Below are positions 6,301 through 61,150 of a stretch of DNA of 64,000 nucleotides, piece after piece. The stretch covers positions 1 to 64,000 of the forward strand of contig JAFYLH010000021.1 in assembly GCA_017537175.1 (NCBI GenBank), read 5' to 3'. A model generated the notes under the pieces. The model searched no databases, was not told the origin of the DNA, and saw only the letters and a program-made list of their open reading frames with translations. A program made the position numbers and the translations under genes. Positions within the stretch are counted from its first letter, which is position 1. Each line of letters opens with the position of its first letter. This stretch comes from Clostridia bacterium (lineage in GTDB: Bacteria > Bacillota > Clostridia > Oscillospirales > CAG-272).

Positions 6301-8399
6301 GAACAAGTGACCGTCAGCTCCACGCATATGCTTATAATGCTTCTCTTGGTGAGTGGACAAAGATCACATCCTCTGTGGGTACAGGCGATATCACAATGAA
6401 TATCGAAATAGAAGGCACAGAATATCTTTACGGCAATTCCCTTTACCTTATGATATTCCGTGGACTCGGTCAGGAATTGGCTGAGATGACCTCCTTTATC
6501 CCTGAGGAAAACCAGTATGATTTCACTATGTTCTGGAACTCTGATACCCAGTATCTCGGTCAGTTTGCAGAAAATATGCTCTATCATCAGCATGAGTGGA
6601 TAGCAGATAACTTTGATGATAAGAAGGGTGTAATTACCTTTAATACAGGCGATGTTTCCAACCGTACCAACTTGAATTACGAATACAACTGGGAGGTTGT
6701 TGATAACAGCTACAATATCTTTGAAGAGGCTGGTATACCCTATACCTTTAACTGGGGCAACCACGACTTAAACTATGATTCTCAGCCCAACGAGACAAGA
6801 TATAACAGGCTCTATTTCCCCACAAGCCGTCTTGACGAAAACAAGGGCGGCTGGGAGGTAAGCTATGCCCCCGATGCAGCAGACGGAACAACCACCCGTG
6901 CTATGGCATATAAGCAGACCATAGACGGCGCAAAGATAATGATACTCTCCCTTGCATATAACTCTTATCTTACCGAGTCTGATCTTACATGGGCAGAGCA
7001 GACACTTGCGGCTAACCCCGATTATACGGTAATCATTATTACCCATAATTACGCTTCCAATTCCGCAATCAAGGATACCAACATCCGTACCCGTCTGGCT
7101 GATGTTTATCCCAATGTCAAGCTGGTTCTTTGCGGACATCTTGACGGTACGGCGGTTCACAAGGATGCCAACGGCAGCTTTGTAGTGCTTCAGGACTATC
7201 AGGGTGAAAGCGGTAAGGTAAAGCACGGCGGCAACGAGTTCTTAAAGCTGATACAGTTTGATGTAGAAAACGATCTTATCTACTTCAACACCTATTCACC
7301 TCTTACAGGCGAGACCCTGTCTCCCATAGGTGAAAAGCCTGATGCAGAGGCAGAGGGACTCTATCAGAAGAACGGTGACGAGTTTGCTCTTAATATCGAG
7401 CTTAACGGCGACAAGACCCGCAGCTTTACCACAGCTGCCCTTACACTTTCAAGCGGTAAGGTGGAATTTACCCATACTGTCAGAATTACAGAGGGTGACT
7501 CTGTAAAGATAGCTCCCAAGGGTCTTACAGCAGGCAGAGAATACCTCTACTATGCCGTTCTTACCGACAGTAGCGGTAATGTGACTGTTACACCCGTACA
7601 TCTCTTTACCGAGATAACAGACAGAGTTGACTATGAGCTTGAAGCGGCAAAGGCTGAGCTTAGTGCAATACTCAGCGCACTTCCCGCATATAAAGAGAGC
7701 GATTATACCGAGGACAGCTGGGATATGTTTATATCCGCAAAGCTTGCGGCAGAGCATATTCTTGAAACAGCAGAGAGTAAGGATATAGTCCTTGAGGCTA
7801 TCAAAAACCTCAACAATGCAACCGAGGCTCTTACCTTAAAGCCTCAGATCAGCTTTACCGATGTAAAGGAAAGCCATTGGTACTATAACGCGGTTATGTA
7901 CGCGGCACAGCGCGGAATATTCAAGGGCAACCCCGACGGCAGCTTTGCTCCCAACAAGGCTATCACAAGAGCCGAGTTTGTTATGGTGCTTGCAAACTAC
8001 TCGGGCGAGGATTATTCTACCGAGGAGTGCAGTAAGTTTACCGATGTTAAATCCTCTGCCTGGTACTACCACGCTATGGCTTGGGCGGCAAATAGAGGTA
8101 TCGTCAACGGTATGACCGAGGACACCTTTGCTCCCACAAAGACCATAACCCGACAGGATCTCTGTCTTATGCTTACAAATTACCTTAAGTATAAGGAAAT
8201 TGAGGTAGAGTCAAGTGTATCCGAGACCTTTGCAGATGACGCAAAGATCGGCAAATGGGCTTATGATGCGGTTTACACCATTAAGTCTATAGGTGTTGTA
8301 TCCGGTATGGGCGCAAACGAATTCCAACCCAGAGGAAATGCAACAAGAGCACAGGTAGCACAAATGATGATGATGTTTGATCAGTATTTAAGTAAATAA
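342..8399 (+). CDS. Giant secreted SLH-domain protein with two metallophosphoesterase domains
   Basis: 2685 residues from ATG 342 (SD AGAAAGG); the frame stays open further upstream but without an SD. A signal peptide covers residues 1-26. Three related repeats of about 335-350 residues follow (near 30, 383 and 720), each opening with G-T-G-T-x-E-D-P-Y-x-I, as in right-handed beta-helix adhesins. Next come an Fn3/purple-phosphatase-like domain (about 1063-1150), metallophosphoesterase 1 (1152-1407), a DUF2341-like domain (about 1493-1573), a LamG/concanavalin-like domain (1585-1800), metallophosphoesterase 2 (2058-2303), a helical linker and three SLH domains (2505-2685). It is probably held non-covalently to secondary wall polymers and may cleave phosphoesters outside the cell. 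Phosphoesterase 1 has GHDH but LGEKD in place of GNHD; phosphoesterase 2 has GNHD but GHLD in place of GHxH. The substrate is unknown. Confidence 0.9.
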   Translation: MSKRLLSAFLCIVMLVGMIPFGAVNAAVTSLQGNGTEESPYEIGSAHELVFMAERLNASDAAYVGKYFKLMADIDLSSVESFPMIVSFSGVLYGNGKTISNLKISDNSGAVVTTDYGIAFIHKLSGRICDLTFDNAVITSNVDASANGNSGAAVVVAETVQDAIVSSVTVKNCLVETPLVPKAGGIAALHARAANKGTVIGIIRNCVVEDTTLIAGPRAAGNKYGLMMGGIAGYSATSTIENCFVKNVTMQAANENTCPFYAAMIVGYAAGGEISGNVSVSGKIERTNETQLFTTVKVGGMVSAKNTTSGGAITSTYPNLMDITNNPEIPAGAAIAGTDTSEAALKAMATYLDLGWDFDDIWKMVGEYPSLKDPNEKGPLKLEGTGTDEDPYQIADKDDLLYAVQNLNNKDERIVGKALKLTADIDLGGVSFTPIEKFDGTIDGDGHTISNLTIEDTSTADKGAEYRVAFIRTNNGTVKNITFASPRISTLAFSAGGNSGAAVIVGDNANGSMISGCVVLDAVVYAPNLPKAGGIAVLNARTTNINATISRCVFEGTLTLGPRAGNYGPMVGGVAAYSATSTIEYCVVNADIIYKGNESIQSSNIYAGIICGYSNRVTYRSNVAYGGSITIDGEVADQRLAGIYAPISFTQTPISNISCEDITLNGTNITVSDNNGTLVTSDMVTKQETYENIGYNFYLFWEMTEKYPLPKNSDPGDPLELEGQGTKEDPYLIGDKYDLLYAVTFLNAHDERIAGKELKLTADIDLNGTSFTPIEKLDGIIDGDGHTIYNLTINDTVTANMGDSYCVAFIRTNNGTVKNLNFASPRISTTALSTGGFSGAAVIVGENTNGSLVSGCVVTDAVVYAPHLPKAAGIAVLNARTSGINATISRCVFEGTLTCGPREGTYGPMLGGIAAYSATSTIEYCIVDCDIIYKGNDTMVSPNIYAAMICGFANSVTFRSNVAYGGSVTLEGEIADQRLATIYAPISYGQSLSKNISCDNITLAGVAVEKSDNNGKIVTADELILQETYEKNGYNFDLLWTMNDGEGYPDRYPVPVILEYSDNEINRLTANLKGAAEIGFTFHYLEGKDMVIKVSETEDFANALTFTAVGDGDIYKADAKGLKTATTYYYRAEGDGKVSATGRFTTDDGELSFISISDTEGQDFYGASQAAMNIAGALYASSDADFILHSGDMVDDARGEEGWQDLIYQAQDSLLSKPMVVTLGEKDKDGVLDHFNLDNTYYSFDYANAHIIVLDTNTLGDEQINWLKADVAATDKDWVILSMHKGPYTSGQFANTVEANELRSLFINELDDLGIDLVIQGHDHIMGHTYDLHNGEVSAQPVYTETINGKRFNYTVDPEGIVYMMSGVMGTEYGKQMTCDDLDAYIMQFERSDGRGNVPTYAKVTVRDDRIEVATYEIKADMQPTMIEGFGIDRAVGKVESIIASGDYTTARKEFNKLTTAQKNQISNYSDLIANEGGNALKEDGAAWLDEKATERRSIVVTNDSTVDFDYAPVLVKLENAPSKKMAFYTTEGEALPYEVESYNKNGISYVWVNVSHIPADSAATLWVYFGGRSTEDPDAVWNDSYGLVEHFDDISDATMHGNVTTNTENGDAVGIFDGESALTYGSVGDDFNHLSVSAIVQMEADGDIHRSGIVSKYNRNNPDGNSSYTLRVDTDGNLLSFYGATWWRTNEVVIEKYNTTEMIADGQPHLITLSYDGFTIETFLDGKCIAWETVLIENATFLVPEMLTTIGAYSDLERPFTGKIYDVQINGARLSGQWEEFRYNNYFGDAVKVGEPEHKDDFSFTVASVDGSIVGIVSKDATLKTEINGVDVKLADTKAGRFEVEVPHPGTGEFEITVTATNDTNTLSDKVIIPALDEDAPAQPEIGMDEDDSLYVNTVPDKNDLVDVTVNVSEYIPLSSANAAVAVGSTEANTPVGVDPTLLGYGEFTDSLTTTVEDGTNPYQVFKVALTEEEVSYGAWRFAWQGTSDRQLHAYAYNASLGEWTKITSSVGTGDITMNIEIEGTEYLYGNSLYLMIFRGLGQELAEMTSFIPEENQYDFTMFWNSDTQYLGQFAENMLYHQHEWIADNFDDKKGVITFNTGDVSNRTNLNYEYNWEVVDNSYNIFEEAGIPYTFNWGNHDLNYDSQPNETRYNRLYFPTSRLDENKGGWEVSYAPDAADGTTTRAMAYKQTIDGAKIMILSLAYNSYLTESDLTWAEQTLAANPDYTVIIITHNYASNSAIKDTNIRTRLADVYPNVKLVLCGHLDGTAVHKDANGSFVVLQDYQGESGKVKHGGNEFLKLIQFDVENDLIYFNTYSPLTGETLSPIGEKPDAEAEGLYQKNGDEFALNIELNGDKTRSFTTAALTLSSGKVEFTHTVRITEGDSVKIAPKGLTAGREYLYYAVLTDSSGNVTVTPVHLFTEITDRVDYELEAAKAELSAILSALPAYKESDYTEDSWDMFISAKLAAEHILETAESKDIVLEAIKNLNNATEALTLKPQISFTDVKESHWYYNAVMYAAQRGIFKGNPDGSFAPNKAITRAEFVMVLANYSGEDYSTEECSKFTDVKSSAWYYHAMAWAANRGIVNGMTEDTFAPTKTITRQDLCLMLTNYLKYKEIEVESSVSETFADDAKIGKWAYDAVYTIKSIGVVSGMGANEFQPRGNATRAQVAQMMMMFDQYLSK

Positions 8400-25912: not shown

Positions 25913-27004
25913 TCATGCAAGAAGATTTGCCAGAGCATACATCTTGTCAAGCTCTGCCTTACGCATAGCGCAGAAAGCCTTCATAGCTTCAACCTGCTCT
26001 TCGCTGAACTTGTCGAGGTCACCGTCCTTAAGCTTGCCCTTGTACATTCTGTCAAGGATAAGAGCGTAGGAGATATCGGTCTCAACGATCTCGCCGTTTC
26101 TTGCACATACAACGCAGTCACTCTTACCTGCGAGGATAAGCTCAACAGCCTTTTCAGCGAACTGAGCAGCCATAAGTCTGTCACGGAGAGTAGGAGCACC
26201 GCCGCGAACCATGTGTGCGGGACGGCAGAACTTGGTGTCGATCCAAGCGCCTTCAGCCTTGGTCTCGGTGTTGATGCGCTTGGTGAGGTATTCGCCGTAG
26301 GGAACACCGTCCTTTTCGGGGAAGCCCTCTGCTACAGCGATGATAAAGCTGCGCTGACCGTTTGCTCTTGCAGCCTTGAGCTTAGCAATAGCAGCCTCTT
26401 CGTCAAAATCACACTCGGGGATAGCAACGATGGTTGCACCAAGAGCGATACCGGACTGGAGTGCAAGGTAGCCTGCGCCTCTGCCCATGATCTCGATAAC
26501 ATTACATCTTGCGTGAGACCAGCAGGTGTCGCGGAGTCTGTCACCAAGCATAAGGTTGGTGTTCATAGCGGTATCAAAGCCAAGCGCATAGTCGGTGGAT
26601 GTGATATCGTTGTCGATGGTAGCGGGGATACCGATGGTGGGAATGCCTCTGTGGCTTAAGTCGGTCGCACCTCTGAAGGTGCCGTCGCCGCCGATAGCGA
26701 TGATAGCATCGATATTTTCTTCCTTACAGGTAGCAATAGCCTTTGCCATACCCTCTTCGGTCTTGAACTCGTCACAACGGTCGGAAAGAAGAGTTGTACC
26801 GCCTGCGTTGATAAAGTTAAGAACATCTGTGTTCTTGAGAGGCTTGATGTTGTTATAGATAAGACCCTTATAGCCCTCGTAGATAGCTACTACCTCAATA
26901 CCCTGCTTGAGAGCAGCAAGTGCAACGGCTCTTACCGCTGTGCTCATACCGGGAGCATCGCCGCCCGAGGTAAGAACACCTATTTTCTTGATTGTGTTTG
27001 CCAT
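25913..27004 (-). CDS. pfkA: 6-phosphofructokinase
   Basis: 363 residues from ATG 27004 (SD AGGAGG). It phosphorylates fructose 6-phosphate in glycolysis. Signatures are LTSGGDAPGMSTAVRAV (Ser where the family usually has Asn), IGGDGTFRGATDL, PATIDNDITSTDYALGFDTA, and MGRGAGYLALQSGIALGA. The Gly in GGDGT is the residue typical of ATP-dependent enzymes, where PPi-dependent ones carry Asp. About 40 residues longer than E. coli PfkA, mainly at the C-terminus. The longer frame to 27046 has no SD. Confidence 0.96.
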   Translation of the reverse strand: MANTIKKIGVLTSGGDAPGMSTAVRAVALAALKQGIEVVAIYEGYKGLIYNNIKPLKNTDVLNFINAGGTTLLSDRCDEFKTEEGMAKAIATCKEENIDAIIAIGGDGTFRGATDLSHRGIPTIGIPATIDNDITSTDYALGFDTAMNTNLMLGDRLRDTCWSHARCNVIEIMGRGAGYLALQSGIALGATIVAIPECDFDEEAAIAKLKAARANGQRSFIIAVAEGFPEKDGVPYGEYLTKRINTETKAEGAWIDTKFCRPAHMVRGGAPTLRDRLMAAQFAEKAVELILAGKSDCVVCARNGEIVETDISYALILDRMYKGKLKDGDLDKFSEEQVEAMKAFCAMRKAELDKMYALANLLA

Positions 27005-49611: not shown

Positions 49612-50766
49612 ATGAAAAAACTTTGCGCAATTCTTGCACTTGCACTTGTGCTTGCAATGACACTTGCCATGACTGTTTCGGCAGGACCTCACGGTATTGT
49701 TGAAAACGCACCCATCACCTTTACCAAGACAACACCTACTGTTGACGGTACTATCAACGGCGACGAGGGTTGGTCGACATCTGCACTTATGAACGCAGAG
49801 ACCCTTGGTTATTATTGGCATCAGAATCCCCTTACCATGGACGGTAATGTTAAGTTTGCATGGGATGAAGAGAACTTCTATTATTGTGCTGACATCGTTG
49901 AAGGTCTCAGTGCCGTAAGAGAAGCAGACGGCTTTGTGTATGAGGAAGGCTCTAACCAGTTTAACTATTCTACAGGTGAGGACTGGATCGATGTTGATAC
50001 CAATGATCCCACATTACATTACGGTTATGACGGTGATGTATTTGGTCTTATGATCGACCCCTTGAACATCTTCATTGAGTACGGCTTTACAGGTAACCAG
50101 GACTACACTCCCTGGTATCTTATCGGTCTCTTTGAGGGTGATGTAGCCAAGATGTACAGACAGAAGGTAAATGCAGGCGATATCACCGATCAGGTTAAGG
50201 TTGAAGGTAAGAAGACCGATAAGGGTTGGTGCTTTGAAGCAGCTATTCCGTGGGATATCATCATCAAGGATGTTGAGGATATCACCTATAGCGAATGCAT
50301 TATAAACAAGGCTGATCTTTTCAAGGATGGTGCTGTAATCAAGACATCCTGTATATATCAGGACAGATTTATCGACGAGGAAGCAGGCGAGGTTGCTACC
50401 TTTGGTCGTTATATAACAGCTCCCACCACTCTTGCTGACGGTAATCCCGGCCATGCAGGCTCCGGTGACAATGCTATGTCCTGCGGTATTACACTTAACG
50501 TTTCTAATCCCGCTTCCTCTAACGATGATAGCGCAACCGGTGATGATACTGAGTTCGTTACCGATGAAAGCGGTAATGCTGTAACAGACGCTTCCGGTAA
50601 CAAGGTTACACAGAAGGCTACCTCCAAGACCACCACCAAGAAGGCTACTACAGGTACTACCACAGGCGGTAATGCTGCTCAGACCTTTGATATGGGCATT
50701 GCTATCGCTGTAGGCGCACTTGCTGTATCCGGTATCGGTCTTGTAGCTTCTAAGAAGAGAAGATAA
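49612..50766 (+). CDS. Secreted CBM9-like protein 2 with AAQTFD C-terminal anchor
   Basis: 384 residues, closely related to protein 1 over its whole length. Signal peptide 1-24 (MTVSA|GPHG). The CBM9-like body shows TPTVDGTINGDEGWSTSALM, VKFAWDEENFYYCADIVE, CFEAAIPWDIIIKDVED, and IYQDRFIDEEAGE. The C-terminus again has TTTKKATTGTTTGGNAAQTFD then a membrane helix and KKRR. SD AGGAGG. Its charge pattern differs from protein 1 around the putative ligand loops (KKTDKGWCFEA), suggesting divergence of binding. Confidence 0.88.
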   Translation: MKKLCAILALALVLAMTLAMTVSAGPHGIVENAPITFTKTTPTVDGTINGDEGWSTSALMNAETLGYYWHQNPLTMDGNVKFAWDEENFYYCADIVEGLSAVREADGFVYEEGSNQFNYSTGEDWIDVDTNDPTLHYGYDGDVFGLMIDPLNIFIEYGFTGNQDYTPWYLIGLFEGDVAKMYRQKVNAGDITDQVKVEGKKTDKGWCFEAAIPWDIIIKDVEDITYSECIINKADLFKDGAVIKTSCIYQDRFIDEEAGEVATFGRYITAPTTLADGNPGHAGSGDNAMSCGITLNVSNPASSNDDSATGDDTEFVTDESGNAVTDASGNKVTQKATSKTTTKKATTGTTTGGNAAQTFDMGIAIAVGALAVSGIGLVASKKRR

Positions 50767-50775
50767 GTAATTGAT

Positions 50776-50820
50776 ATTACATAACAAAAAAGACGCTTCG
50801 GCGTCTTTTTGTTATGTAAT
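50776..50820 (+). terminator. Long terminator hairpin with TTCG loop
   Basis: About 20 bp of pairing (50776-50796 with 50801-50820; core AGACGC-TTCG-GCGTCT), one extra A on the left arm. T run within the right arm. Confidence 0.9.
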
Positions 50821-50837
50821 ATATTTACAATAAACTA

Positions 50838-50866
50838 TTGATTTATAGAATGTACAATGCTACAAT
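50838..50866 (+). promoter_or_regulatory. Promoter of CBM9-like genes 3 and 4
   Basis: TTGATT (50838-50843), 17-nt spacer, TACAAT (50861-50866) with TG at 50858-50859. Confidence 0.8.
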
Positions 50867-50894
50867 GAGTATATAAAATATAAGGAGTAAGACT

Positions 50895-52052
50895 ATGAAA
50901 AAAATTATTACTGTCTTATTGGCAATATTGATGCTTTCGGCATTATCATTTAATGTGCTGGCCGGTCCCGAGGGAGTTGTTGAAAATCCTCCGATCGACC
51001 TTTCCAAAGTAACTCCCACCGTTGACGGAAATATTACCGAAAACGAGGGCTGGTCTGCTGCTGCAGTTATGGATTACGATTCCTTAGGCTTTTTCTGGCA
51101 TGTAAATCCTATTACCTTTAAGGGTAGTGTAAGATTTGCATATGATGATGAATACTTCTATTATGCCGCAGATCTCACCGACGGTCTTGAGGCTACCCAC
51201 GAGATCACAGGCGAACTTATTCCCGCCGGAACAAACGAGTTTATTTATTCTACCGGAACAGACGATATTGACTTAAAGGATGACGGAACAGCCTTTGGTT
51301 ATAACGGCGATGTTTTTGGTATGCTTATAGATCCCATGGGACTTTTTATCGAAAACGGCTTTACAGGTAACGAGGACAACACCCCCTGGTATATGATAGG
51401 TCTCTTTGAGGGAGATGTTGCCAGGATGTACCGCGAAAAGGTAAATGCGGGTGATGTCACCGACCGTGTAAAGCTTGCGGGACACAAGACCTCGCAGGGC
51501 TGGTGTCTTGAGGCAGGCATTCCTTGGGATATGATAATAGAGGATATTGAGGCTGTAAGCTACGGTGAATGTATTATCGACAAGGCAGAGCTTCTTAACA
51601 ACAGATCTCTTATCCGTGCAGGAGCAATGTATCACGACCGCTTCAACGATCCCGAGGCGGGCGAGGTTGCAACCTGGGGCTGCTTTGTAACAGTTCCCAC
51701 AACCCTTGCAGACGGAACCCCCGGTCATTTGGGTACAGGTACAAATGTTATGTCCCTTGGTCTTAACCTCTATCTTGAAAGCAAGAGTGATGATGACACT
51801 ACAACCGACGGCACTACCGAGCCCGACACATCATTTGTTGATGTTACCGATGATAAGGGTAATACCGTAACAGACGATAAGGGCAACAAGGTTACACAGA
51901 AGGTTACCGTAAAGACCACTACCAAAAAGGCTGCCACAGGTACCACTACAGGCGGTAATGCTGCGCAGACCTTTGATATGGGTATTGCAATCGCTGTAGG
52001 CGCACTTGCTGCTTCCGGTATCGGTCTTGCTGTTACTAAGAGGAGAAGATGA
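50895..52052 (+). CDS. Secreted CBM9-like protein 3 with AAQTFD C-terminal anchor
   Basis: 385 residues. Signal peptide 1-23 (NVLA|GPEG). The CBM9-like body includes TPTVDGNITENEGWSAAAVM, VRFAYDDEYFYYAADLTD, WCLEAGIPWDMIIEDIE, and AMYHDRFNDPEAGEVATWG. The same Thr/Lys linker, GGNAAQTFDMG, membrane helix and KRRR end follow. Its stop TGA overlaps the next gene's start, so proteins 3 and 4 are made from one message. Confidence 0.88.
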   Translation: MKKIITVLLAILMLSALSFNVLAGPEGVVENPPIDLSKVTPTVDGNITENEGWSAAAVMDYDSLGFFWHVNPITFKGSVRFAYDDEYFYYAADLTDGLEATHEITGELIPAGTNEFIYSTGTDDIDLKDDGTAFGYNGDVFGMLIDPMGLFIENGFTGNEDNTPWYMIGLFEGDVARMYREKVNAGDVTDRVKLAGHKTSQGWCLEAGIPWDMIIEDIEAVSYGECIIDKAELLNNRSLIRAGAMYHDRFNDPEAGEVATWGCFVTVPTTLADGTPGHLGTGTNVMSLGLNLYLESKSDDDTTTDGTTEPDTSFVDVTDDKGNTVTDDKGNKVTQKVTVKTTTKKAATGTTTGGNAAQTFDMGIAIAVGALAASGIGLAVTKRRR

Positions 52053-53146
52053 TGAAAAAAACAATTTGTGTTTTCATCATACTTTCTGTGCTCAGCCTGA
52101 CAGTATTTGCTAACCCAAATATGCAGGCAGATATCGGAAATATAAATGTTCCTATGGCAACACCTGTGATAGACGGAGTTATAAATGCAGGCGAGGGCTG
52201 GAGCGAGGGTGTGTATGCCTATAAGGATCTTATGGCTACCTTTGGTAACTGCAATGAGATCCTGCAGTCCTTCTATCTTTATTATGCCTATGATAATGAC
52301 GGCATCTACTATGCCGCCGACATTACAGACAATAGCTTTGTACTCTCTACCGGTGAGGACGATATAGACAATGTCAAGAACGATTTTAATATAAAGGACG
52401 AGGTAGTTTACGGCTACAACGGAGATATATTTACCTTTACTGTCGATCCCATGGGAGCCTTTCTCAATGAAGGCTATATGAGTAATACCGACTATAATGC
52501 CTGGTATTCGGTAGGTATATTTGAGGGAAATGTATGCCGTATGTACAGGGCTCATAACCGTAGCGGTGATATAACCTCGGATGTTAAGCTTAAGGGAGCG
52601 GTGACCGATGCAGGCTGGCGCTTTGAAGCCTTTATCCCCTGGGACTTTATATCAACAGATGCCGAGGATATGTCATACGGAGATATATCCCTTACTCCGG
52701 CTCAGCTTTGCGCTTCGGGAGCATCCCACAGAGCCATGGCGATATATATGGACAGATTTGTGGATCCCGAGTCGGGAGACATAGCCACCTTCCAGCGCTT
52801 TGCCACCTGCGGCTTCACTCTGTCCGACGGATTGCTGGGATATATGTCCTCGGGTATGTGTCTCAAGGCCTACGGTATCACCCTGACCCTTGGCGGTACA
52901 GGTGATGGGGCAGATACTACAAAAACAGAGGATACTACAGCATCAAGTACAGAAAGTACTACCGACACTTCATCCAACAAAAAGGATACCAAAGCCACCA
53001 CAGTAAAGACCACCACCAAAAAGGCGACTACAGGTACTGCCACAGGCGGTAATGCCGCACAGACCTTTGATCTGGGAATTGCCATAGGTATAGGTGTGGC
53101 AATAGCAGCGGTGATAGCATTTATATTTGTAAAGAAAAAATTATGA
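52052..53146 (+). CDS. Secreted CBM9-like protein 4, divergent paralogue
   Basis: 364 residues; ATG 52052 is preferred over the ATG three nt earlier because AGGAG is then 6 nt away. Signal peptide 1-20 (TVFA|NPNM). It is the most diverged copy: TPVIDGVINAGEGWSEGVYA, YYAYDNDGIYYAADITD, WRFEAFIPWDFISTDAED, MAIYMDRFVDPESGD. The anchor is kept (GGNAAQTFDLGIAIGIGVA, KKKL). It overlaps gene 3 by one base, so expression should be coupled. Lower codon uniformity than copies 1-2 fits older divergence. Confidence 0.86.
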   Translation: MKKTICVFIILSVLSLTVFANPNMQADIGNINVPMATPVIDGVINAGEGWSEGVYAYKDLMATFGNCNEILQSFYLYYAYDNDGIYYAADITDNSFVLSTGEDDIDNVKNDFNIKDEVVYGYNGDIFTFTVDPMGAFLNEGYMSNTDYNAWYSVGIFEGNVCRMYRAHNRSGDITSDVKLKGAVTDAGWRFEAFIPWDFISTDAEDMSYGDISLTPAQLCASGASHRAMAIYMDRFVDPESGDIATFQRFATCGFTLSDGLLGYMSSGMCLKAYGITLTLGGTGDGADTTKTEDTTASSTESTTDTSSNKKDTKATTVKTTTKKATTGTATGGNAAQTFDLGIAIGIGVAIAAVIAFIFVKKKL

Positions 53147-55513: not shown

Positions 55514-56719
55514 TCAGTTTGCTTTAAAATTATATATAGGTCTAATATGAGCTGTAATGTCGGCAGTAGGTGTAATATGCTTAAGTATATGCTCCATCGT
55601 CTTATATGCCATAGGCGATTCGTCAAGGGTCGAGGTGTTGACACAGGTGGTGTATATACCCGACATCTGCGACTCATACTCCGCCATAGTCAGCTTCTCA
55701 AAGGCATCGGTACGGCTCATTATTCTGCCTGCACCGTGGGGAGCAGAGAAGTTCCAATCGGGGTTGCCCTTGCCTCTGCAGACGAGAGAGCCATCACGCA
55801 TATTGATGGGGATAAGTAGCTTTTCTCCTGCCTTTGCAGGTACAGAGCCCTTACGGAGTATCATAGCCTCCACATCAATATAGTTATGTATTGTGTGGAA
55901 AGAATCAATTGCTTTCAAGCCTGTCATCTCAAGGATAAGCTCTGCCATCTTCTCACGGTTGCGGGCGGCAAAGTGCTGACAGATGTCAATATCGTGGATA
56001 TAGTCCTCCATATAAGAGCCGTAGAGGTAACAGAGCGAGCGTGGAATAGCGGGCTCACTTGTCTTAAATTCCTTTTCCAGCTGCTTAAGTGCTGTCTGTA
56101 TCTCTGTTTTTCTGCCATCGGCTTTATATGTGCGGATTATATCCTCGCGCTTTTTAAAATACTCATCCTTGCCCATAGCAAGATCTATTGCAATACCCTG
56201 ATAATGCTCTGCCACCTGTGTACCGAGATTACGGCTGCCTGAATGAATTACAAGGTACTTGTTACCCTCATCATCAATATCTATCTCAATAAAATGATTT
56301 CCTCCGCCAAGAGTGCCTATGCTGCGCTCAAGTCTTTTGGAATCCTTAAGCGCACGGAAGCAACGAAGTGCCTGCAGGTCAAAACGCTCCTTTCTGCCCT
56401 CCCATACCTTCTTTCCGCAGGGAATGGTATGAACGGCAGCATCAAAAACCTCAAGGTCAATGTCGATCTTTCCAAGCTCCACGGTATACATACCGCAGCC
56501 TATATCAACGCCCACCATATTTGGTACGACCTTGTCAACTATAGTCATTGTTGTACCGATGGTACAACCCACACCTGCGTGTACATCGGGCATTATTCTT
56601 ATCCTTGAGGCGGCAAAATCCTCAATATCGCAGACCGATTTTATCTGCTCGTAAGCTGTGCCCTCAACGCTGTCTGTAAAGCAGAGGGCGGTATTAAAAT
56701 TTCCTTTTATCTCTATCAT
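55514..56719 (-). CDS. rtcB: RtcB-family RNA ligase
   Basis: 401 residues from ATG 56719 (SD GAAAGGA). RtcB joins RNA 2',3'-cyclic phosphate or 3'-phosphate ends to 5'-OH ends with GTP and Mn. Signatures are MPDVHAGVGCTIGTT near 43, VGVDIGCGM near 70 with the metal Cys, LGGGNHFIEI near 138, HSGSRNLG near 156 and PHGAGRIMSR near 325, where the His takes GMP. It is the short (about 400-residue) form. It follows a TROVE/vWA gene on the same strand, an association known from bacterial RNA-repair operons; a terminator-like hairpin lies between them. Confidence 0.94.
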   Translation of the reverse strand: MIEIKGNFNTALCFTDSVEGTAYEQIKSVCDIEDFAASRIRIMPDVHAGVGCTIGTTMTIVDKVVPNMVGVDIGCGMYTVELGKIDIDLEVFDAAVHTIPCGKKVWEGRKERFDLQALRCFRALKDSKRLERSIGTLGGGNHFIEIDIDDEGNKYLVIHSGSRNLGTQVAEHYQGIAIDLAMGKDEYFKKREDIIRTYKADGRKTEIQTALKQLEKEFKTSEPAIPRSLCYLYGSYMEDYIHDIDICQHFAARNREKMAELILEMTGLKAIDSFHTIHNYIDVEAMILRKGSVPAKAGEKLLIPINMRDGSLVCRGKGNPDWNFSAPHGAGRIMSRTDAFEKLTMAEYESQMSGIYTTCVNTSTLDESPMAYKTMEHILKHITPTADITAHIRPIYNFKAN

Positions 56720-56742
56720 TATTTTTCCTTTCAAATGCAAAA

Positions 56743-56761: not shown

Positions 56762-58218
56762 TATGCTGTTATTTTTGAATATCTCTCGTCCGAGAGGATC
56801 TCTAACATGTATGTGTAGGGGTCGGTATTACCCTTGACTACCCTTGAAAATATTGCGGTAGTACAACCGCTGACAAGTATGACACCCTGCTCGTTTTTTG
56901 TAACCGGCTGCTGGCGTCTTCGGCTCTGTACATTCCAGAACACAAGCTCGGGAAGCTCGTAGCCTGCTTCGTTAAACAGCCTTTTGGCATATTCAAAGTT
57001 GGTAAGAGAAGCATCCTCGGCACACCAGTCAAACTCCATATCCGAAATGATATAGATCTTTGAAGGCATTTCCTTCTTGGGAGTGGAGTACTTGACAGCA
57101 GTATTTAAGATAAGCTCAAATACCTTCTGAATATTTGTATTTGCCACCTCGTTGAACTCTGCACAATAGCGTACCTTTTCCGAAATATTATTGCCCTTTA
57201 TCTCCACAAGCTGAGGATTCTCGGAGAAGGTGATAAAGTGATTTGCAAAACGGCCCTTATTTCTCTCTGCATAATAGATACCAAGGGAAAGAGCAACTGT
57301 TGCAGGCATAGGATCGCCGTAAGAGTACATAGATCCCGAGCCGTCAACCACAACAAGGGTGTTTTCTTCGCTTGTGTAGTCGGGCAGAGCATTCCATGTA
57401 GTGTCGATAGCCGCCTGTTCATCCTCATCAAGAGCGTTTCGGAGCAGAGGTCTTATTATCTCATAGGGGTATAGGGTAGAAGTATTTAATTTTATGTTGC
57501 CGGCTCTGACCTGTTCAAGATAGCTTCTGTACCTTTCGCCGTCGTTACGGCAGAAGGCTTCGCGGTACTTGAACATAGCCTTGGAGGGCTGAGCTGCATA
57601 ATCAAAGGTATAATCCCTTGTACGCAGATTATTTTCGATTATTCTGATATAACTGCGGAGCTTGGTAAGTGTCTGTCGATACTGCTTTTCTGTCATACCC
57701 AACTGCTTTGCAATGATCTTGGCATTTTTCACCGCTTCGGCATTGGATGTGTTTACCGAGGGCAGCCACTTTGCCAAAAGGGAAACAGGGTTACCCTTTT
57801 CCATATCGCAAAGATCCTTTTCAAGACTCTGTCTGATATATTCTATTGCACTTACCTGACAGGGAGTACCCATAAGTACCAAAAGGTCATCGTACCTGCC
57901 GTATTCGGCAATGCTTTCGATATTCTTTTTTACCGCATCGGGATGAAAAACACAAAGATGCTTAAGTATAACGCGGAACACTCTGCGTTCTCCCAATCCT
58001 CCTCGTACATCCCTTGCATAGAACAGGGTCTTTAATGCAAGCTCGGGGGCTTCGGTATAGGCTTTTGTGAATCTGCCGACTATCTCCTTTTCATTTGCCT
58101 GCCGTAAAGCACCGATTGTTGCAAACAGATCAAGGACATATGACATAGTGCTGAGATTGGTTACGGCACCGTTCTCGGTATAAGTAATATTTGCTTCTTT
58201 CTTCAGGTTCTCTAACAT
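56761..58218 (-). CDS. TROVE/vWA (Ro60-like, DUF2828-type) RNA-binding protein
   Basis: 485 residues from ATG 58218 (SD AAAGGAGG); a longer frame to 58275 lacks an SD and would enter the RNA array. Residues 1-280 are helical repeats as in TROVE/DUF2828 proteins (TENGAVTNLST, LKTLFYARDVRGGLGERRVF, IAEYGRYDDLLVL). Residues 285-485 form a von Willebrand A domain with the metal site VVDGSGSM near 290, and ISDMEFDW. Ro60 proteins form a ring that holds small Y RNAs on its outside and samples misfolded RNA ends. Upstream is an array of six box-bearing RNA units and downstream is RtcB, supporting an RNA-repair or RNA-quality role. Assignment to the TROVE superfamily is from pattern memory. Confidence 0.85.
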   Translation of the reverse strand: MLENLKKEANITYTENGAVTNLSTMSYVLDLFATIGALRQANEKEIVGRFTKAYTEAPELALKTLFYARDVRGGLGERRVFRVILKHLCVFHPDAVKKNIESIAEYGRYDDLLVLMGTPCQVSAIEYIRQSLEKDLCDMEKGNPVSLLAKWLPSVNTSNAEAVKNAKIIAKQLGMTEKQYRQTLTKLRSYIRIIENNLRTRDYTFDYAAQPSKAMFKYREAFCRNDGERYRSYLEQVRAGNIKLNTSTLYPYEIIRPLLRNALDEDEQAAIDTTWNALPDYTSEENTLVVVDGSGSMYSYGDPMPATVALSLGIYYAERNKGRFANHFITFSENPQLVEIKGNNISEKVRYCAEFNEVANTNIQKVFELILNTAVKYSTPKKEMPSKIYIISDMEFDWCAEDASLTNFEYAKRLFNEAGYELPELVFWNVQSRRRQQPVTKNEQGVILVSGCTTAIFSRVVKGNTDPYTYMLEILSDERYSKITA

Positions 58219-58248: not shown

Positions 58249-58319
58249 ACAAGATACTTTCCGCCACGATGGCAAGTCCTCCTTTTGGGGAGAATCGTTA
58301 CTTTGCTGTAAGTATCTTT
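58249..58319 (-). ncRNA. Array RNA unit F (nearest the TROVE gene)
   Basis: Minus strand. Box AAAGATACTT-ACAGCAA (58319-58303) at the 5' end; the 3' end AAGTATCTT-GT (58259-58249) pairs with AAGATACTT, nine perfect base pairs. Inside are GCCA-TCG-TGGC (58263-58273) and CTCC/GGAG hairpins. The unit is 71 nt and ends about 30 nt before the TROVE start codon. Confidence 0.75.
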
Positions 58320-58323
58320 AATT

Positions 58324-58406
58324 TCAAGATGCACACATTAATACCTCGTTTATATGTACGAGGGTCATTACAGACGACCTTATGTATTATTGCTGTTCGC
58401 ATCTTT
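58324..58406 (-). ncRNA. Array RNA unit E
   Basis: Minus strand. Box AAAGATGCGA-ACAGCAA (58406-58390); 3' end GCATCTT-GA (58332-58324) pairs with AAGATGC, seven base pairs. An internal 6-bp hairpin CCTCGT/ACGAGG spans 58344-58363. 83 nt. Confidence 0.75.
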
Positions 58407-58407
58407 T

Positions 58408-58447
58408 TGTCTTCACGTTCCGACATGTGTCCTACGAGCCGAAGACA
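58408..58447 (-). other. Box-less hairpin between units E and C
   Basis: TGTCTTC (58408-58414) and GAAGACA (58441-58447) pair perfectly over 7 bp around a 26-nt loop. No ACAGCAA box. It could be a separate RNA or a spacer structure. Confidence 0.45.
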
Positions 58448-58451
58448 TATA

Positions 58452-58533
58452 ACAAGGCACATGTTTCATTGATAATAATTGGATTTCTCCGCATATATTC
58501 AGTACATCTGAAAGAGTTGCTGTCTGTGCCTTT
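58452..58533 (-). ncRNA. Array RNA unit C
   Basis: Minus strand. Box AAAGGCACAG-ACAGCAA (58533-58517); 3' end TGTGCCTT-GT (58461-58452) pairs with AAGGCACA, eight perfect base pairs. 82 nt. The central part is AT-rich. Confidence 0.75.
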
Positions 58534-58534
58534 T

Positions 58535-58647
58535 AAAACAATAGCGGTATCTCGGTTTATGGCCGTCGGCACCATTGTTTTCTTTTTATACCCCCGATAC
58601 GCAAGGCATTCCCACAGTGCGATACAATGGAGATATCAACGTATCGG
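58535..58647 (-). other. Two box-less hairpins between units C and D
   Basis: Hairpin H: AAAACAAT (58535-58542) with ATTGTTTT (58574-58581), containing an inner CGG/CCG stem. Hairpin G: CCGATACG (58594-58601) with CGTATCGG (58640-58647). Both are perfect 8-bp stems enclosing about 30-40 nt and lack the ACAGCAA box. Confidence 0.5.
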
Positions 58648-58657
58648 ATATATTTAT

Positions 58658-58802
58658 ACAAGACCCATATCGTCCGTGCAGAATATCTGCTTTTATGCTT
58701 TTGAGGCATCTGCCCGCAGGCTTCAGATAATACCACAACCTCTTATCTACTAAGGATAAGTGCTACTCAGCCAATGATCGTGTTTTTGCTGTTGGGGTCT
58801 TT
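58658..58802 (-). ncRNA. Array RNA unit D, long form
   Basis: Minus strand. Box AAAGACCCCA-ACAGCAA (58802-58786); 3' end GGGTCTT-GT (58666-58658) pairs with AAGACCC, seven perfect base pairs. 145 nt, about twice the others, with internal hairpins such as CTTATC/GATAAG (58742-58760) and GCAGA/TCTGC near 58679. Confidence 0.72.
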
Positions 58803-58808
58803 ATATTA

Positions 58809-58873
58809 ACAAGGCACGCTTTACGGTAAACGAATTTCAAGTTCGCATCTCACGGCTTGCTGTATGTGCCTTT
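58809..58873 (-). ncRNA. Array RNA unit B
   Basis: Minus strand. Box AAAGGCACAT-ACAGCAA (58873-58857); 3' end GTGCCTT-GT (58817-58809) pairs with AAGGCAC, seven perfect base pairs. 65 nt. Internal CGAA/TTCG hairpin near 58831-58845. It directly abuts unit A. Confidence 0.75.
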
Positions 58874-58935
58874 ACAAGGTGCATTGTAGTCAAACGAGTC
58901 AAAATCGTGTACTCCATTTTGCTGTCTGCGCCTTT
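58874..58935 (-). ncRNA. Array RNA unit A (promoter-proximal)
   Basis: Minus strand. Box AAAGGCGCAG-ACAGCAA (58935-58919); 3' end TGCACCTT-GT (58883-58874) pairs with AAGGCGCA with one C/A mismatch. 62 nt. A TAAAAT box lies 10 nt upstream, so transcription should begin about 3 nt before the AAAG. Confidence 0.72.
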
Positions 58936-58944
58936 CGTGACCTT

Positions 58945-58973
58945 ATTTTACCCCAAAATTCTCCAATAATCAC
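58945..58973 (-). promoter_or_regulatory. Candidate promoter of the RNA array
   Basis: On the minus strand, GTGATT (58973-58968), 17-nt spacer, TAAAAT (58950-58945); the -35 is weak. The predicted start, near 58938, coincides with the first RNA unit, just after the WYL-operon terminator. Confidence 0.55.
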
Positions 58974-58978
58974 GGAAA

Positions 58979-59012
58979 AAAAGCTGCGAACTCACAAAAG
59001 TTCACAGCTTTT
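58979..59012 (-). terminator. Terminator of the WYL operon
   Basis: AAAAGCTG-C-GAACT (58979-58992) pairs with AGTTC-A-CAGCTTTT (58999-59012), one internal mismatch; a run of Ts follows on the minus strand. It includes the stop codon of the WYL gene (58992-58994). Confidence 0.85.
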
Positions 59013-59903
59013 CTGATCTATTAATTTATTTTTTATAAGGCTTTTAAAGCTCTCGGGAGCTATCACCTCAACGGTAGGACCAAAGGACAGTACCCTTATT
59101 ACCATCTCGGATGTATCACCTTTGTCAAAGCTCATATGTAACAGATATCTGCCGTCGTCGCTCCTCTCCACCCTTTTTTTAAGATGGGCAAAGTGCATAA
59201 GGCATCGCTCAAGCGTGTTGCGCTCATCCCTTATTTCAAGGGTGACATTTTCCTCCTCGGTTTCGTATTTACCCGATGCTATGACATCATCGCCGTAATA
59301 TACCTTGCATTTCTGTATACGGGCAAGGTTGACTGCCCGCACAAATCCGCAGCCGCTTGTAACAAGGCGGAACTTGTCGTCCTTTGCCGAGTATTCCAGC
59401 CTCTCGGGGATGCATCTTATATACACCCTCTCACCGTAACGGTTGTTGATCTCTATTTTGAGATTATGCCCCTGCCGCATTGCGGTAAGTATTGTGCGGA
59501 AGTGATCGATATATCGTTCATCCTCATAAGGATCGCCGTCATCGTATTTGTCGTATACACAGTAATCCGCTTCGGTGAATAAGGGAATAACATCATCCAA
59601 GCCCTCAAGCTCAACCCTAAAGAGCTTTATTCTCGGGTCAAGGGATATTGCCTTTAACCACTGCCTTTGAATCTCGGTCATTGGCATGGTAGGCTTATGC
59701 CGTATAGGTGTGGTCATATCCTGACGGACAAGCTGCCATTTTTGATTTTTAAGTGAGGGAAGGATGGTGAGTACACTTTCGCCAAAGGCGTTTTCTTCAA
59801 CTATTTTTGCAAGATCCTTATCTGCTGAATTGTTATCTGTCAGCTTGTCAAGTATTCTTGCCACCGCATTATAATAGACGGAGTATATCTCGTTGAATAT
59901 CAT
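58992..59903 (-). CDS. WYL-domain regulator 1
   Basis: 303 residues. No classical N-terminal HTH is obvious; residues 1-90 are helical. From about 130 the WYL-type beta-rich domain is seen (LTAMRQGHNLKIEINNRYGE, VYIRCIPERLEYSAKDDKFRL), followed by a C-terminal extension (WCX-like; MSFDKGDTSEMVIRVLSFGP). WYL domains bind nucleic acids or nucleotides and control defence and RNA-repair loci. The ATG overlaps the end of WYL gene 2 (ATGA), so the two are coupled. It lies just upstream of the RNA array and the TROVE and rtcB genes. Confidence 0.85.
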   Translation of the reverse strand: MIFNEIYSVYYNAVARILDKLTDNNSADKDLAKIVEENAFGESVLTILPSLKNQKWQLVRQDMTTPIRHKPTMPMTEIQRQWLKAISLDPRIKLFRVELEGLDDVIPLFTEADYCVYDKYDDGDPYEDERYIDHFRTILTAMRQGHNLKIEINNRYGERVYIRCIPERLEYSAKDDKFRLVTSGCGFVRAVNLARIQKCKVYYGDDVIASGKYETEEENVTLEIRDERNTLERCLMHFAHLKKRVERSDDGRYLLHMSFDKGDTSEMVIRVLSFGPTVEVIAPESFKSLIKNKLIDQKSCELL

Positions 59904-61150
59904 TCACTCACCTCCCCGATACCGTAGATACGGTACATTTCTTCAATATCGTCCTTAAAGCGCTTTTCAAGCTCCTTGTTTGAAAAATCAAGGTCTGTTA
60001 TCCTGCATATAAAGGTGCGTATCCAGGGAACAAGCTCGCTTGTATCGTATACCTCGGCATGGAATCGGTATGTATTATCATCTATCTTATCGATATGACC
60101 TATGCGCTTTTCCCGTTCAAGGCGGCGGATTATATGCGCTTCATCCTCATCTATATGTACGGTAAACTCAACATACTCTGTGTGATCTCTGCCGTATTTG
60201 TCACGGTTGGCGGTAACACCCCAGATCTTAGATTGCATAGAGTCAAGCTCTGCTCTTAATTCATCAAATCTGGGAGTAGACTCTTTTATTTCGATATCGG
60301 ACAGATAATCAACACGGAAGGATTTTATCCTGTTATATTCGGCATCATATGCCAACAGATGCTGCCTGCCGTTCTGTGTGCTTATAAATATTCTCAGCGG
60401 AATCAACCTAAGCCTTGTGTCGCGGTCAAAGTGACGGCTGTGGTTGGTCACTGTAATGATCGACTTTTTCTGCATGGCACTAAACAGCATAGCCAAAACA
60501 TTACTGTCAATAGCCGATGTAATATAATGATGCTTAAATCCAAAGAAGTCGTTATGCTCCTTTTGTTTATCCAGCAGATAAGAACCTATGACACCAACAG
60601 GCATAGCCTCAGAGAAATAATGCAATACATCATTTATATCGTCAGGCATCTCATGCTCGCTTCGCCTGTAAAGCATTTTTCTGCCGGATTTTTGCGCTTT
60701 AATAATGCCGAGCTCTGTATATTCCTTGAGCTTTTTTCTTAGAGTCGATTCATCAAACAGCATAGGCTCATCAAAACCGGAGAGATATGCATCCGCCCTT
60801 TCCATTATCTCGGAAAGACAAAGGCTGATATCGGGAGAGCAGAGAATGTCAAAAAGAATAAAATGCAGAGTTATATCCTTGTCGGTAAAGCTCTTTGATT
60901 TCAAAGCCTTGTACAGGGGATTGTGTGTAACTATACGGCTGTCAATAGATATAAAAACATTTTTACCCTCAGAGCCGCGGACAAAGCTCATATGCTCACC
61001 CAGCCAGCTTTCCATGCGTCTGCGCTCGTCGTCATAGGAACGGGCGCTTTTGCCGGTATATTCATTTCTGCTCTTGAAGCCGTAAACATAGAACTCACGC
61101 ATATATTCACGGATATTTTCAAAGTTTTTTATAAGCTCGCTGTATGCCAT
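59900..61150 (-). CDS. WYL-domain regulator 2
   Basis: 416 residues from ATG 61150 (SD AAAGGAGA). An N-terminal region of about 190 residues with a winged-helix-like stretch (DESTLRKKLKEYTELGIIKA near 145) precedes a WYL domain (about 205-310: MFSAMQKKSIITVTNHSRHF, LRLIPLRIFISTQNGRQHLL, RIKSFRVDYLSDIEI) and a C-terminal WCX-type extension. Probably a sensor-regulator acting as a pair with WYL 1. A TATAAT (minus strand, about 61176-61181) lies 27 nt upstream. Confidence 0.85.
   Translation of the reverse strand: MAYSELIKNFENIREYMREFYVYGFKSRNEYTGKSARSYDDERRRMESWLGEHMSFVRGSEGKNVFISIDSRIVTHNPLYKALKSKSFTDKDITLHFILFDILCSPDISLCLSEIMERADAYLSGFDEPMLFDESTLRKKLKEYTELGIIKAQKSGRKMLYRRSEHEMPDDINDVLHYFSEAMPVGVIGSYLLDKQKEHNDFFGFKHHYITSAIDSNVLAMLFSAMQKKSIITVTNHSRHFDRDTRLRLIPLRIFISTQNGRQHLLAYDAEYNRIKSFRVDYLSDIEIKESTPRFDELRAELDSMQSKIWGVTANRDKYGRDHTEYVEFTVHIDEDEAHIIRRLEREKRIGHIDKIDDNTYRFHAEVYDTSELVPWIRTFICRITDLDFSNKELEKRFKDDIEEMYRIYGIGEVSE

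Follow-up and report, generated by a model that had tools for sequence, protein, structure and literature searches.

What are six short, similarly framed units doing directly ahead of a Ro60-like gene in a Clostridia bacterium? The question is raised by a 64,000-nucleotide (nt) stretch of contig JAFYLH010000021.1 (assembly GCA_017537175.1; hereafter, the window), in which positions 58249-58935 of the minus strand hold six tandem units directly before the ATG, at 58218, of a gene for a 485-residue protein with DUF2828 and DUF7788 domains. The units are genuine members of an RNA family under strong selection that goes with the DUF2828 lineage of Ro proteins, and the window carries six copies of it in an array. 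Judging from comparative sequence evidence, we consider it likely that they are six Y RNAs, a multicopy family of this phage-type Ro lineage that is predicted to be held through a terminal helix and an adjoining box.

Six units with covarying closing helices

All units share a 17-nt box, NAAGRYRCNN-ACAGCAA, and a covarying closing helix with the unit end CTTG; the closing strand is the reverse complement of positions 2-8 of the unit's own box, followed by G. Read along the minus strand, the array comprises unit A (58874-58935, 62 nt; box AAAGGCGCAG-ACAGCAA, closing strand TGCACCTTG), unit B (58809-58873, 65 nt; AAAGGCACAT-ACAGCAA, closing GTGCCTTG), unit C (58658-58802, 145 nt; AAAGACCCCA-ACAGCAA, closing GGGTCTTG), unit D (58452-58533, 82 nt; AAAGGCACAG-ACAGCAA, closing TGTGCCTTG), unit E (58324-58406, 83 nt; AAAGATGCGA-ACAGCAA, closing TGCATCTTG) and unit F (58249-58319, 71 nt; AAAGATACTT-ACAGCAA, closing AAGTATCTTG). 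The first-pass annotation of this DNA had listed six such boxes, all of which were located where it placed them, and its unit lengths of 62 to 145 nt were correct. It had also described unit ends that pair with their own box, with one flaw; units B-F indeed form at least seven consecutive pairs each (seven Watson-Crick pairs plus G in the fixed-box test described below), and the helix of unit A carries a single C/A mismatch.

The pattern AAAGRNNCNNACAGCAA has six matches in the 2.32-megabase genome assembly, all of them inside the array. A looser unit scan of the locus returned six sense and no antisense units, against a mean of 0.20 in 20 dinucleotide shuffles. Minimum free energy (MFE) z-scores for units A to F were -1.4, -1.1, -1.7, -2.3, -4.2 and -2.6; folding energy alone is thus modest evidence, and the case is carried by covariation. 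By eye, the C-D and D-E spacers (58657-58534 and 58451-58407, minus strand) seem to hold boxless, end-paired hairpins.

Linkage to DUF2828 genes in bacteria and phages

The bacterial comparison covered 30 DUF2828 loci, the window included; three of them (L056-L058) represent one genus, making the loci partly nonindependent, and species overlap between the two genome collections behind the set is possible. All 30 carry at least one unit within 1,300 nt upstream, for a total of 93 units when box variants are allowed, with one to seven copies per locus and unit lengths of 45 to 230 nt. The units stand upstream of the DUF2828 gene or, in L018, L051 and L053, upstream of the gene for the RNA ligase RtcB, which comes first there; the array of L015 (genome G117) is also situated before RtcB. 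Their consensus 5′ end is A-A-A-G-R-Y-R-C-N-N-A-C-A-G-C-A-A and their 3′ end is G-Y-R-Y-C-T-T-G, with variant boxes in L022. The loose scan includes a few probable chance units, for example, one of 195 nt in L049. At its loosest, it gave 86 sense and nine antisense matches across 24 loci (shuffle mean, 7.15), and wider stretches of 15 loci held six antisense matches.

Because unit counts that require pairing carry selection bias, we relied instead on a test with fixed boxes, in which 87 boxes from 29 of the 30 loci were chosen by sequence alone, blind to pairing. Seven Watson-Crick pairs plus G were present downstream of 80 of these boxes, or of 82 with G-U pairs allowed, compared to a mean of 9.2 and a maximum of 19 in 1,000 permutations. 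The five that remained unpaired are unit A of the window, a variant unit in L026, embedded modules in L029 and L055 and an apparent chance box in L048. Box density follows the gene, with 87 boxes in 39 kilobases (kb) of upstream stretches versus 45 in 430 kb outside. Among genomes without a DUF2828 gene, the exact box occurred in 33 of 186, as single matches or on different contigs; a reversed control pattern matched 31 of all 196 genomes. These data bear out two expectations attached to the original description, namely that paired ends would be conserved beside the gene in relatives and that the box is not a dispersed mobile repeat.

The DUF2828 gene itself is patchily distributed, being present in ten of 196 genomes among relatives and in seven of 398 genomes of the phylum (the window's own genome counted in both), and 14 loci lie in named genome contigs. 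The protein has at least 8,000 homologues; DUF2828 was found in 681 of 50,697 phage records and in four of 72,556 plasmids. Several bacterial loci are accompanied by further RNA genes. Thirteen tRNA genes stand in a row in L022 (1169-2369), ~1.4 kb ahead of the DUF2828 gene; in each of the three loci from one genus (L056, L057 and L058), the DUF2828 gene is followed at ~100 bases by a tRNA-Ser(GGA) gene; and a GA-cis RNA (Rfam, 63.4 bits) adjoins the Ro-like locus of L027 on the opposite strand (5525-5611, minus).

For viruses, we analyzed the best 80 of at least 440 confirmed contigs, a set containing some near-duplicates (for example, L061 and L062). Outside the gene, ACAGCAA occurs 339 times on the gene strand and 68 times on the opposite strand. 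Closure by seven pairs plus G was found for 147 of the 339 sense matches (permuted mean 4.3, maximum 13) and for none of the 68 antisense matches; 61 different helix words are involved, and 56 of the 80 loci hold at least one closed unit. Eight named phages (LeBron, FADO, AG20, dune, phi-pp2, EfsSzw-1, QDYZ and phiM19) each have at least one sense match with at least seven pairs, together amounting to 23 sense versus three antisense matches, one FADO match lying inside another gene. Boxed units of dune lie at about 9712-9778 of L164 and those of FADO at about 3189-5913 of L142. The letters of the helix vary freely (GAGCGC in LeBron, AGGAAGC in AG20), but the core is retained, and so, usually, is the G that follows the pairing. 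Three boxed units lie directly upstream of the Ro gene in AG20, where 17 tRNA genes, the Ro-like gene and RtcB fall inside one 19.5-kb stretch.

A neighbor of predicted Ro60-like fold, tRNA-like interiors in relatives and the surrounding locus

The gene following the array (56764-58218, minus strand) had been described as encoding a Ro60-like TROVE/vWA protein. The likeness holds for the predicted fold but not for family membership; the Pfam matches are DUF2828 and DUF7788, with a weak VWA_2 match at E 0.11, and, in the absence of a Pfam TROVE match, the Ro60 claim rests on fold. An AlphaFold2 model (predicted local distance difference test score 83) has a helical-repeat plus vWA-like fold, and structure searches with this model returned Ro60/TROVE entries in all of Foldseek rows 1-13 and VIA rows 1-10. 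In the vWA domain, a motif of the metal-ion-dependent adhesion site type, DxSGS (D292, S294 and S296, with T361 and D393), is invariant across 42 aligned sequences. These features resemble Ro60/Rsr (TROVE, PF05731), whereas the protein differs in belonging to the DUF2828/DUF7788 lineage, which is common in phages, and in having neither a Pfam TROVE match nor a sequence match in the PDB. No PF05731 match exists in the window genome. Classical TROVE genes, present in nine of 398 genomes of the phylum, lack the boxed array: at these nine loci, ACAGCAA occurs 14 times in sense and six times in antisense orientation with no helix-closed case, and one chance-like pairing was seen beside ACAGCAC. At one of them (L163, genome G198), the TROVE match contains an in-frame stop, and RtcB and two WYL-type regulators lie nearby without boxed units.

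The interiors of some units in relatives resemble tRNAs. Rfam tRNA matches of 33.7 to 53.1 bits fall inside units of L008, L011, L014, L017, L018 (two), L021, L024 and L027. A strict T arm is present in 17 of 93 units from 16 of 30 loci (shuffle mean 0.26, maximum 2), and hairpins with a 5-base-pair (bp) stem and a 7-nt loop carrying U33 and a purine at 37 occur in 34 of 93 (shuffle mean 1.65, maximum 6) or, with T loops left out, in 22 of 93 as anticodon-type loops. The loop sequences include CTTGAAA (four times), CTGAAAA and CTAAAAA (three times each), TTTCGGG, CTCATAA, CTGTCAC and others. One CTTGAAA loop lies in unit B of the window (58830-58846, minus strand; 5-bp stem, U33 and purine 37), the other three in units of relatives. 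Among the 17 bacterial units with a T arm, 15 leave 9-21 nt between the end of this arm and the 3′ end of the unit, so that the closing helix stands in the place of the acceptor stem, as in canonical tRNA order; the arm is central in the other two, in L019 and L048. As the D-arm pattern was too strict to be informative, arm order was judged from the T-arm position and by eye. ARAGORN additionally detected tRNA-Phe genes between units in L046 and L054. In the window, no match was obtained at Rfam gathering thresholds, a relaxed Rfam search of the array gave only two sub-threshold, chance-level matches and no tRNA was found by Rfam (RF00005) in the array or by ARAGORN anywhere in the window.

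Units from viruses and named phages add a second arrangement. Of their 29 T-arm units, ten place the T arm 14-19 nt from the 3′ end, another 17 leave 53-76 nt beyond it and two are intermediate. In FADO and LeBron units of the 53-76-nt kind, the T arm is followed by a closed acceptor-type hairpin and a D-type arm, which is the order of YrlA. A third form is seen in L055 and L029, which are divergent (42-44% protein identity); there, the handle consists of a hairpin followed by ACAGCAA inside tRNA-like genes, at approximately -220 to -20 and -500 to -300, respectively, relative to the DUF2828 gene. L055 has two such genes with intact acceptor and T arms and hairpin caps GTAA and GCTA, with ACAGCAA after the GTAA cap only. 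In L029, ACAGCAA is present in both genes, one predicted to form a cloverleaf and the second less clear. From this embedded form, the combination of helix and box looks portable.

YrlA RNAs (RF02553) are among the closest known counterparts. They are described as 90-150 nt long, with a basal stem that holds Rsr and a tRNA-like domain that binds PNPase (PMC8394870), and as a circular permutation of tRNA (PMC11472068). The present family shares the location near a Ro60-type gene, the end-to-end helix and, in relatives, the tRNA-like domain, and YrlA likewise stands in an operon with RtcB in some bacteria (PMC8394870, PMC7790460). The first-pass suggestion of a Y-RNA-like family gains support from the Ro60-like fold and from a boxed unit of mycobacteriophage LeBron that matches the YrlA model with 39.8 bits (E 4.4e-7); by eye, the arms of two boxed FADO units are ordered as in YrlA. 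No match reached the YrlA gathering score of 69 bits, LeBron being the best relative, and the window gave no match; the permuted order of T arm, acceptor and D arm was not found in the window units, which have no strict T arm. Further differences are that the printed YrlA consensus has no ACAGCAA box in its stem, that bacterial T-arm units mostly keep canonical order (15 of 17), often with anticodon-type loops, and that loci hold one to seven units, whereas the Salmonella operon is named rsr-yrlBA-rtcBA. By these sequence comparisons, the units are outside YrlA as Rfam defines it, with a stem signature unlike the YrlA consensus.

In the window, the genes are ordered WYL-WYL-[array]-DUF2828-RtcB. 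The RtcB gene (55517-56740, minus strand) named in the first-pass annotation is confirmed by a PF01139 match and adjoins the Ro-type gene, as in rsr-Y RNA-rtcBA operons. Upstream of the array on the same strand, domain matches identify a WYL-domain regulator 1 (59903-61150) and a WYL-type regulator 2 with a WCX domain (58995-59903). The Salmonella operon, reported to be activated by tRNA fragments (PMC7790460, PMC8394870), likewise combines a Ro-type protein with Y RNAs and RtcB and has a regulator of its own (PMC7790460); the window differs in its WYL-type pair, its six-unit array ahead of the genes and its RNA signature. No RtcA or RtcR was present among eight neighboring proteins scanned at the window locus, and ten neighbor proteins scanned from seven loci revealed no consistent extra partner. 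Across the 30 bacterial loci, the stretches read contain RtcB in 19 cases, one of them a 62-residue fragment, and the WYL pair in 12, with the window counted in both; as some contigs stop nearby, both counts are minimum values.

Between regulator 2 and unit A lies a conserved operator-like element, TTCGCAGCTTTTTTTCCGTGA (58970-58990, minus strand), which has a single match in the window and none in shuffles. It is followed by a -10-like hexamer, TAAAAT (58945-58950, minus strand), exactly 19 nt past CCGTGA and 9 nt ahead of unit A. CCGTGA and a -10-like hexamer at exactly this 19-nt distance precede the first unit in nine of the 30 loci, the window and eight relatives; the gap between the hexamer and the first unit is 7 or 9 nt in six of the nine and 15, 27 and 41 nt in the other three. 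A sigma-70 scan listed no site before unit A and no -35-type site there. Together with the fixed spacing, this looks like an activator-dependent promoter, and we predict a transcription start at or just before unit A. The core motif also occurs upstream of WYL regulator 1 in L018 and L051, suggesting autoregulation by the WYL proteins. Elsewhere in the window, three similar-looking, secreted-looking proteins are encoded in tandem (49612-53146, plus strand), by eye with a C-terminal GGNAAQTFD before a hydrophobic segment.

Alternative explanations and a proposed role

The units look like Y RNAs because of their position, their end helix and the tRNA mimicry of their relatives. They lie beside a gene of Ro60 type by predicted fold, and a conserved terminal helix joins their 5′ and 3′ ends. 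The observed basis for this reading comprises the sequence with its pairing and covariation, the linkage to the gene, the predicted fold and the tRNA-like domains of relatives. Several results weigh on the other side. No Pfam TROVE (PF05731) match was obtained for the neighbor protein at E values up to 10, nor a sequence match in the PDB, and sequence similarity to Ro60 is absent. None of the window units reaches an Rfam family, MFE z-scores are modest in three of six (-1.1 to -1.7) and a strict T arm is present in none of the six, which reduces mimicry in the window to the anticodon-type loop of unit B. Neither RtcB nor the WYL pair seems obligatory to the locus. Among viruses, 24 of 80 loci have no unit under the strict test; the phi-pp2 and phiM19 matches are the weakest, and the three antisense matches in named phages indicate background. 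For Listeria phage CKA15, highly transcribed noncoding regions upstream of an Rsr-like gene were proposed by the authors to be Y RNAs (PMC12282133). The protein is of DUF2828 type, and the homologous AG20 region has three boxed units upstream of its Ro gene. However, the excerpted account gives no motif or structure for the putative Y RNAs, and the one highly transcribed region with stated coordinates, at 26,236-26,727, equivalent to positions 7480-7971 of our AG20 locus (L145), corresponds to AG20 sequence without a boxed unit, the boxed units lying nearer the Ro gene. As the region at these coordinates holds no box, the evidence for expression of boxed units in phages is indirect.

The strand-specific covariation and gene linkage also decide against a chance pattern or a mobile hairpin repeat, such as a miniature inverted-repeat transposable element or attC-like DNA element. 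Tandem copies with unrelated interiors do recall integron attC arrays. This reading is nevertheless hard to hold, and we give it almost no weight, since all six exact boxes of the genome sit at this locus, helix covariation in viral loci is confined to the sense strand and is also seen in bacterial arrays, and linkage to DUF2828 extends to 30 of 30 bacterial loci. That the units are instead elements of a 5′ untranslated region, controlling DUF2828-RtcB expression by, for example, feedback from the Ro-like protein and never existing as separate RNAs, would suit an array that, in the window and eight other loci, is flanked by the promoter-like element on one side and the first gene on the other. 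We judge it improbable: units in viral contigs and named phages can be kilobases away from the gene, stand among tRNAs or follow the gene, a leader would hardly call for as many as seven copies with unrelated interiors and tRNA-mimic interiors fit trans-acting RNAs better.

Two further proposals turn on RtcB. Units whose two ends meet in a helix, leaving few bases unpaired outside it, could be ligated by RtcB, found in 19 of 30 loci, into RNA circles. Conserved ACAGCAA and the trailing G should not be needed for such ligation, units persist in the 11 loci without an RtcB match and in phage stretches without annotated RtcB (for example, L164) and there is no sign of self-cleavage or of a processing site, all of which makes circles quite unlikely. 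A rival account of the RNAs' job, compatible with Ro binding, takes them as sacrificial tRNA decoys, whose anticodon-type loops would be cut by anticodon nucleases on the Ro-like ring and resealed by RtcB; the units would then be baits rather than gates or tethers. Competitive inhibition of anticodon nucleases has been floated for YrlA (PMC7790460). The 7-nt anticodon-type loops in 22 of 93 units, unit B among them, the same 19 loci with RtcB, the tRNA-Phe gene adjoining a Phe-like unit in L046 and the phage orthologues close to large tRNA clusters in AG20 (with RtcB), dune and phi-pp2 all agree with such a function. Conversely, 71 of 93 units have no recognizable anticodon-type loop, RtcB was not found in 11 of 30 loci and some loops (AAA, UCG) are, to our knowledge, unusual as bacterial anticodons. 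We regard decoys as a possible but rather unlikely explanation.

Under the favored reading of the units as Y RNAs, we infer transcription, processing, Ro binding, WYL regulation and a repair role as follows. The locus is likely one transcription unit, which the two WYL regulators would switch on at the conserved promoter, starting at or near unit A. Processing of the transcript would release the individual RNAs for loading on the Ro-like ring, where the neighboring protein of predicted Ro60 fold would hold each one through its 7-9-bp end helix together with ACAGCAA just inside and the G just outside. Unit interiors would serve as interchangeable modules. In relatives, some mimic tRNA, either in the normal order of D, anticodon and T arms with the closing helix for an acceptor stem or, in phages, in the YrlA-permuted order. 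The ring and its modules may serve quality control by gathering or gating tRNA and other structured RNA, and cleaved RNAs would be sealed by the RtcB of the locus. A jumbo-phage review describes TROVE proteins, paired with a tRNA-like partner, as platforms for RNA repair (PMC7824862), and a Ro60-related protein was noted in a Vibrio phage (PMC7765460). In titles and abstract openings, we recognized no description of the ACAGCAA box or of such arrays; one query returned mostly primer sequences and carries little weight.

We regard the units as a variant within Ro/Y-RNA systems that may act in tRNA repair or as nuclease bait. Beyond the first-pass annotation, the analysis adds tRNA mimics in the units of relatives, spread in often tRNA-rich phages and a promoter-like element. 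A bolder version, which we advance tentatively and hold to be doubtful as a whole, is a second, phage-linked Ro/Y-RNA world. Here, a portable handle (7-bp helix, two bases, ACAGCAA and trailing G) would be joined to tRNAs in three or more ways (at the acceptor end, YrlA-permuted and as a capped hairpin inside tRNA-like genes that are otherwise complete), and bacteria and tRNA-rich phages would use mimic arrays as baits and platforms against tRNA-cutting enzymes, with RtcB repairing the damage. If the Y-RNA reading is right, a common and mostly unnamed Ro-like lineage would gain a simple sequence-plus-helix signature for its RNA partner, and a role of Ro and Y RNAs in RNA-repair operons and tRNA-rich phages would become testable in phages of Escherichia coli and Bacillus subtilis. 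Canonical and permuted tRNA mimics on one Ro handle would also bear on the origin of Y RNAs from tRNAs.
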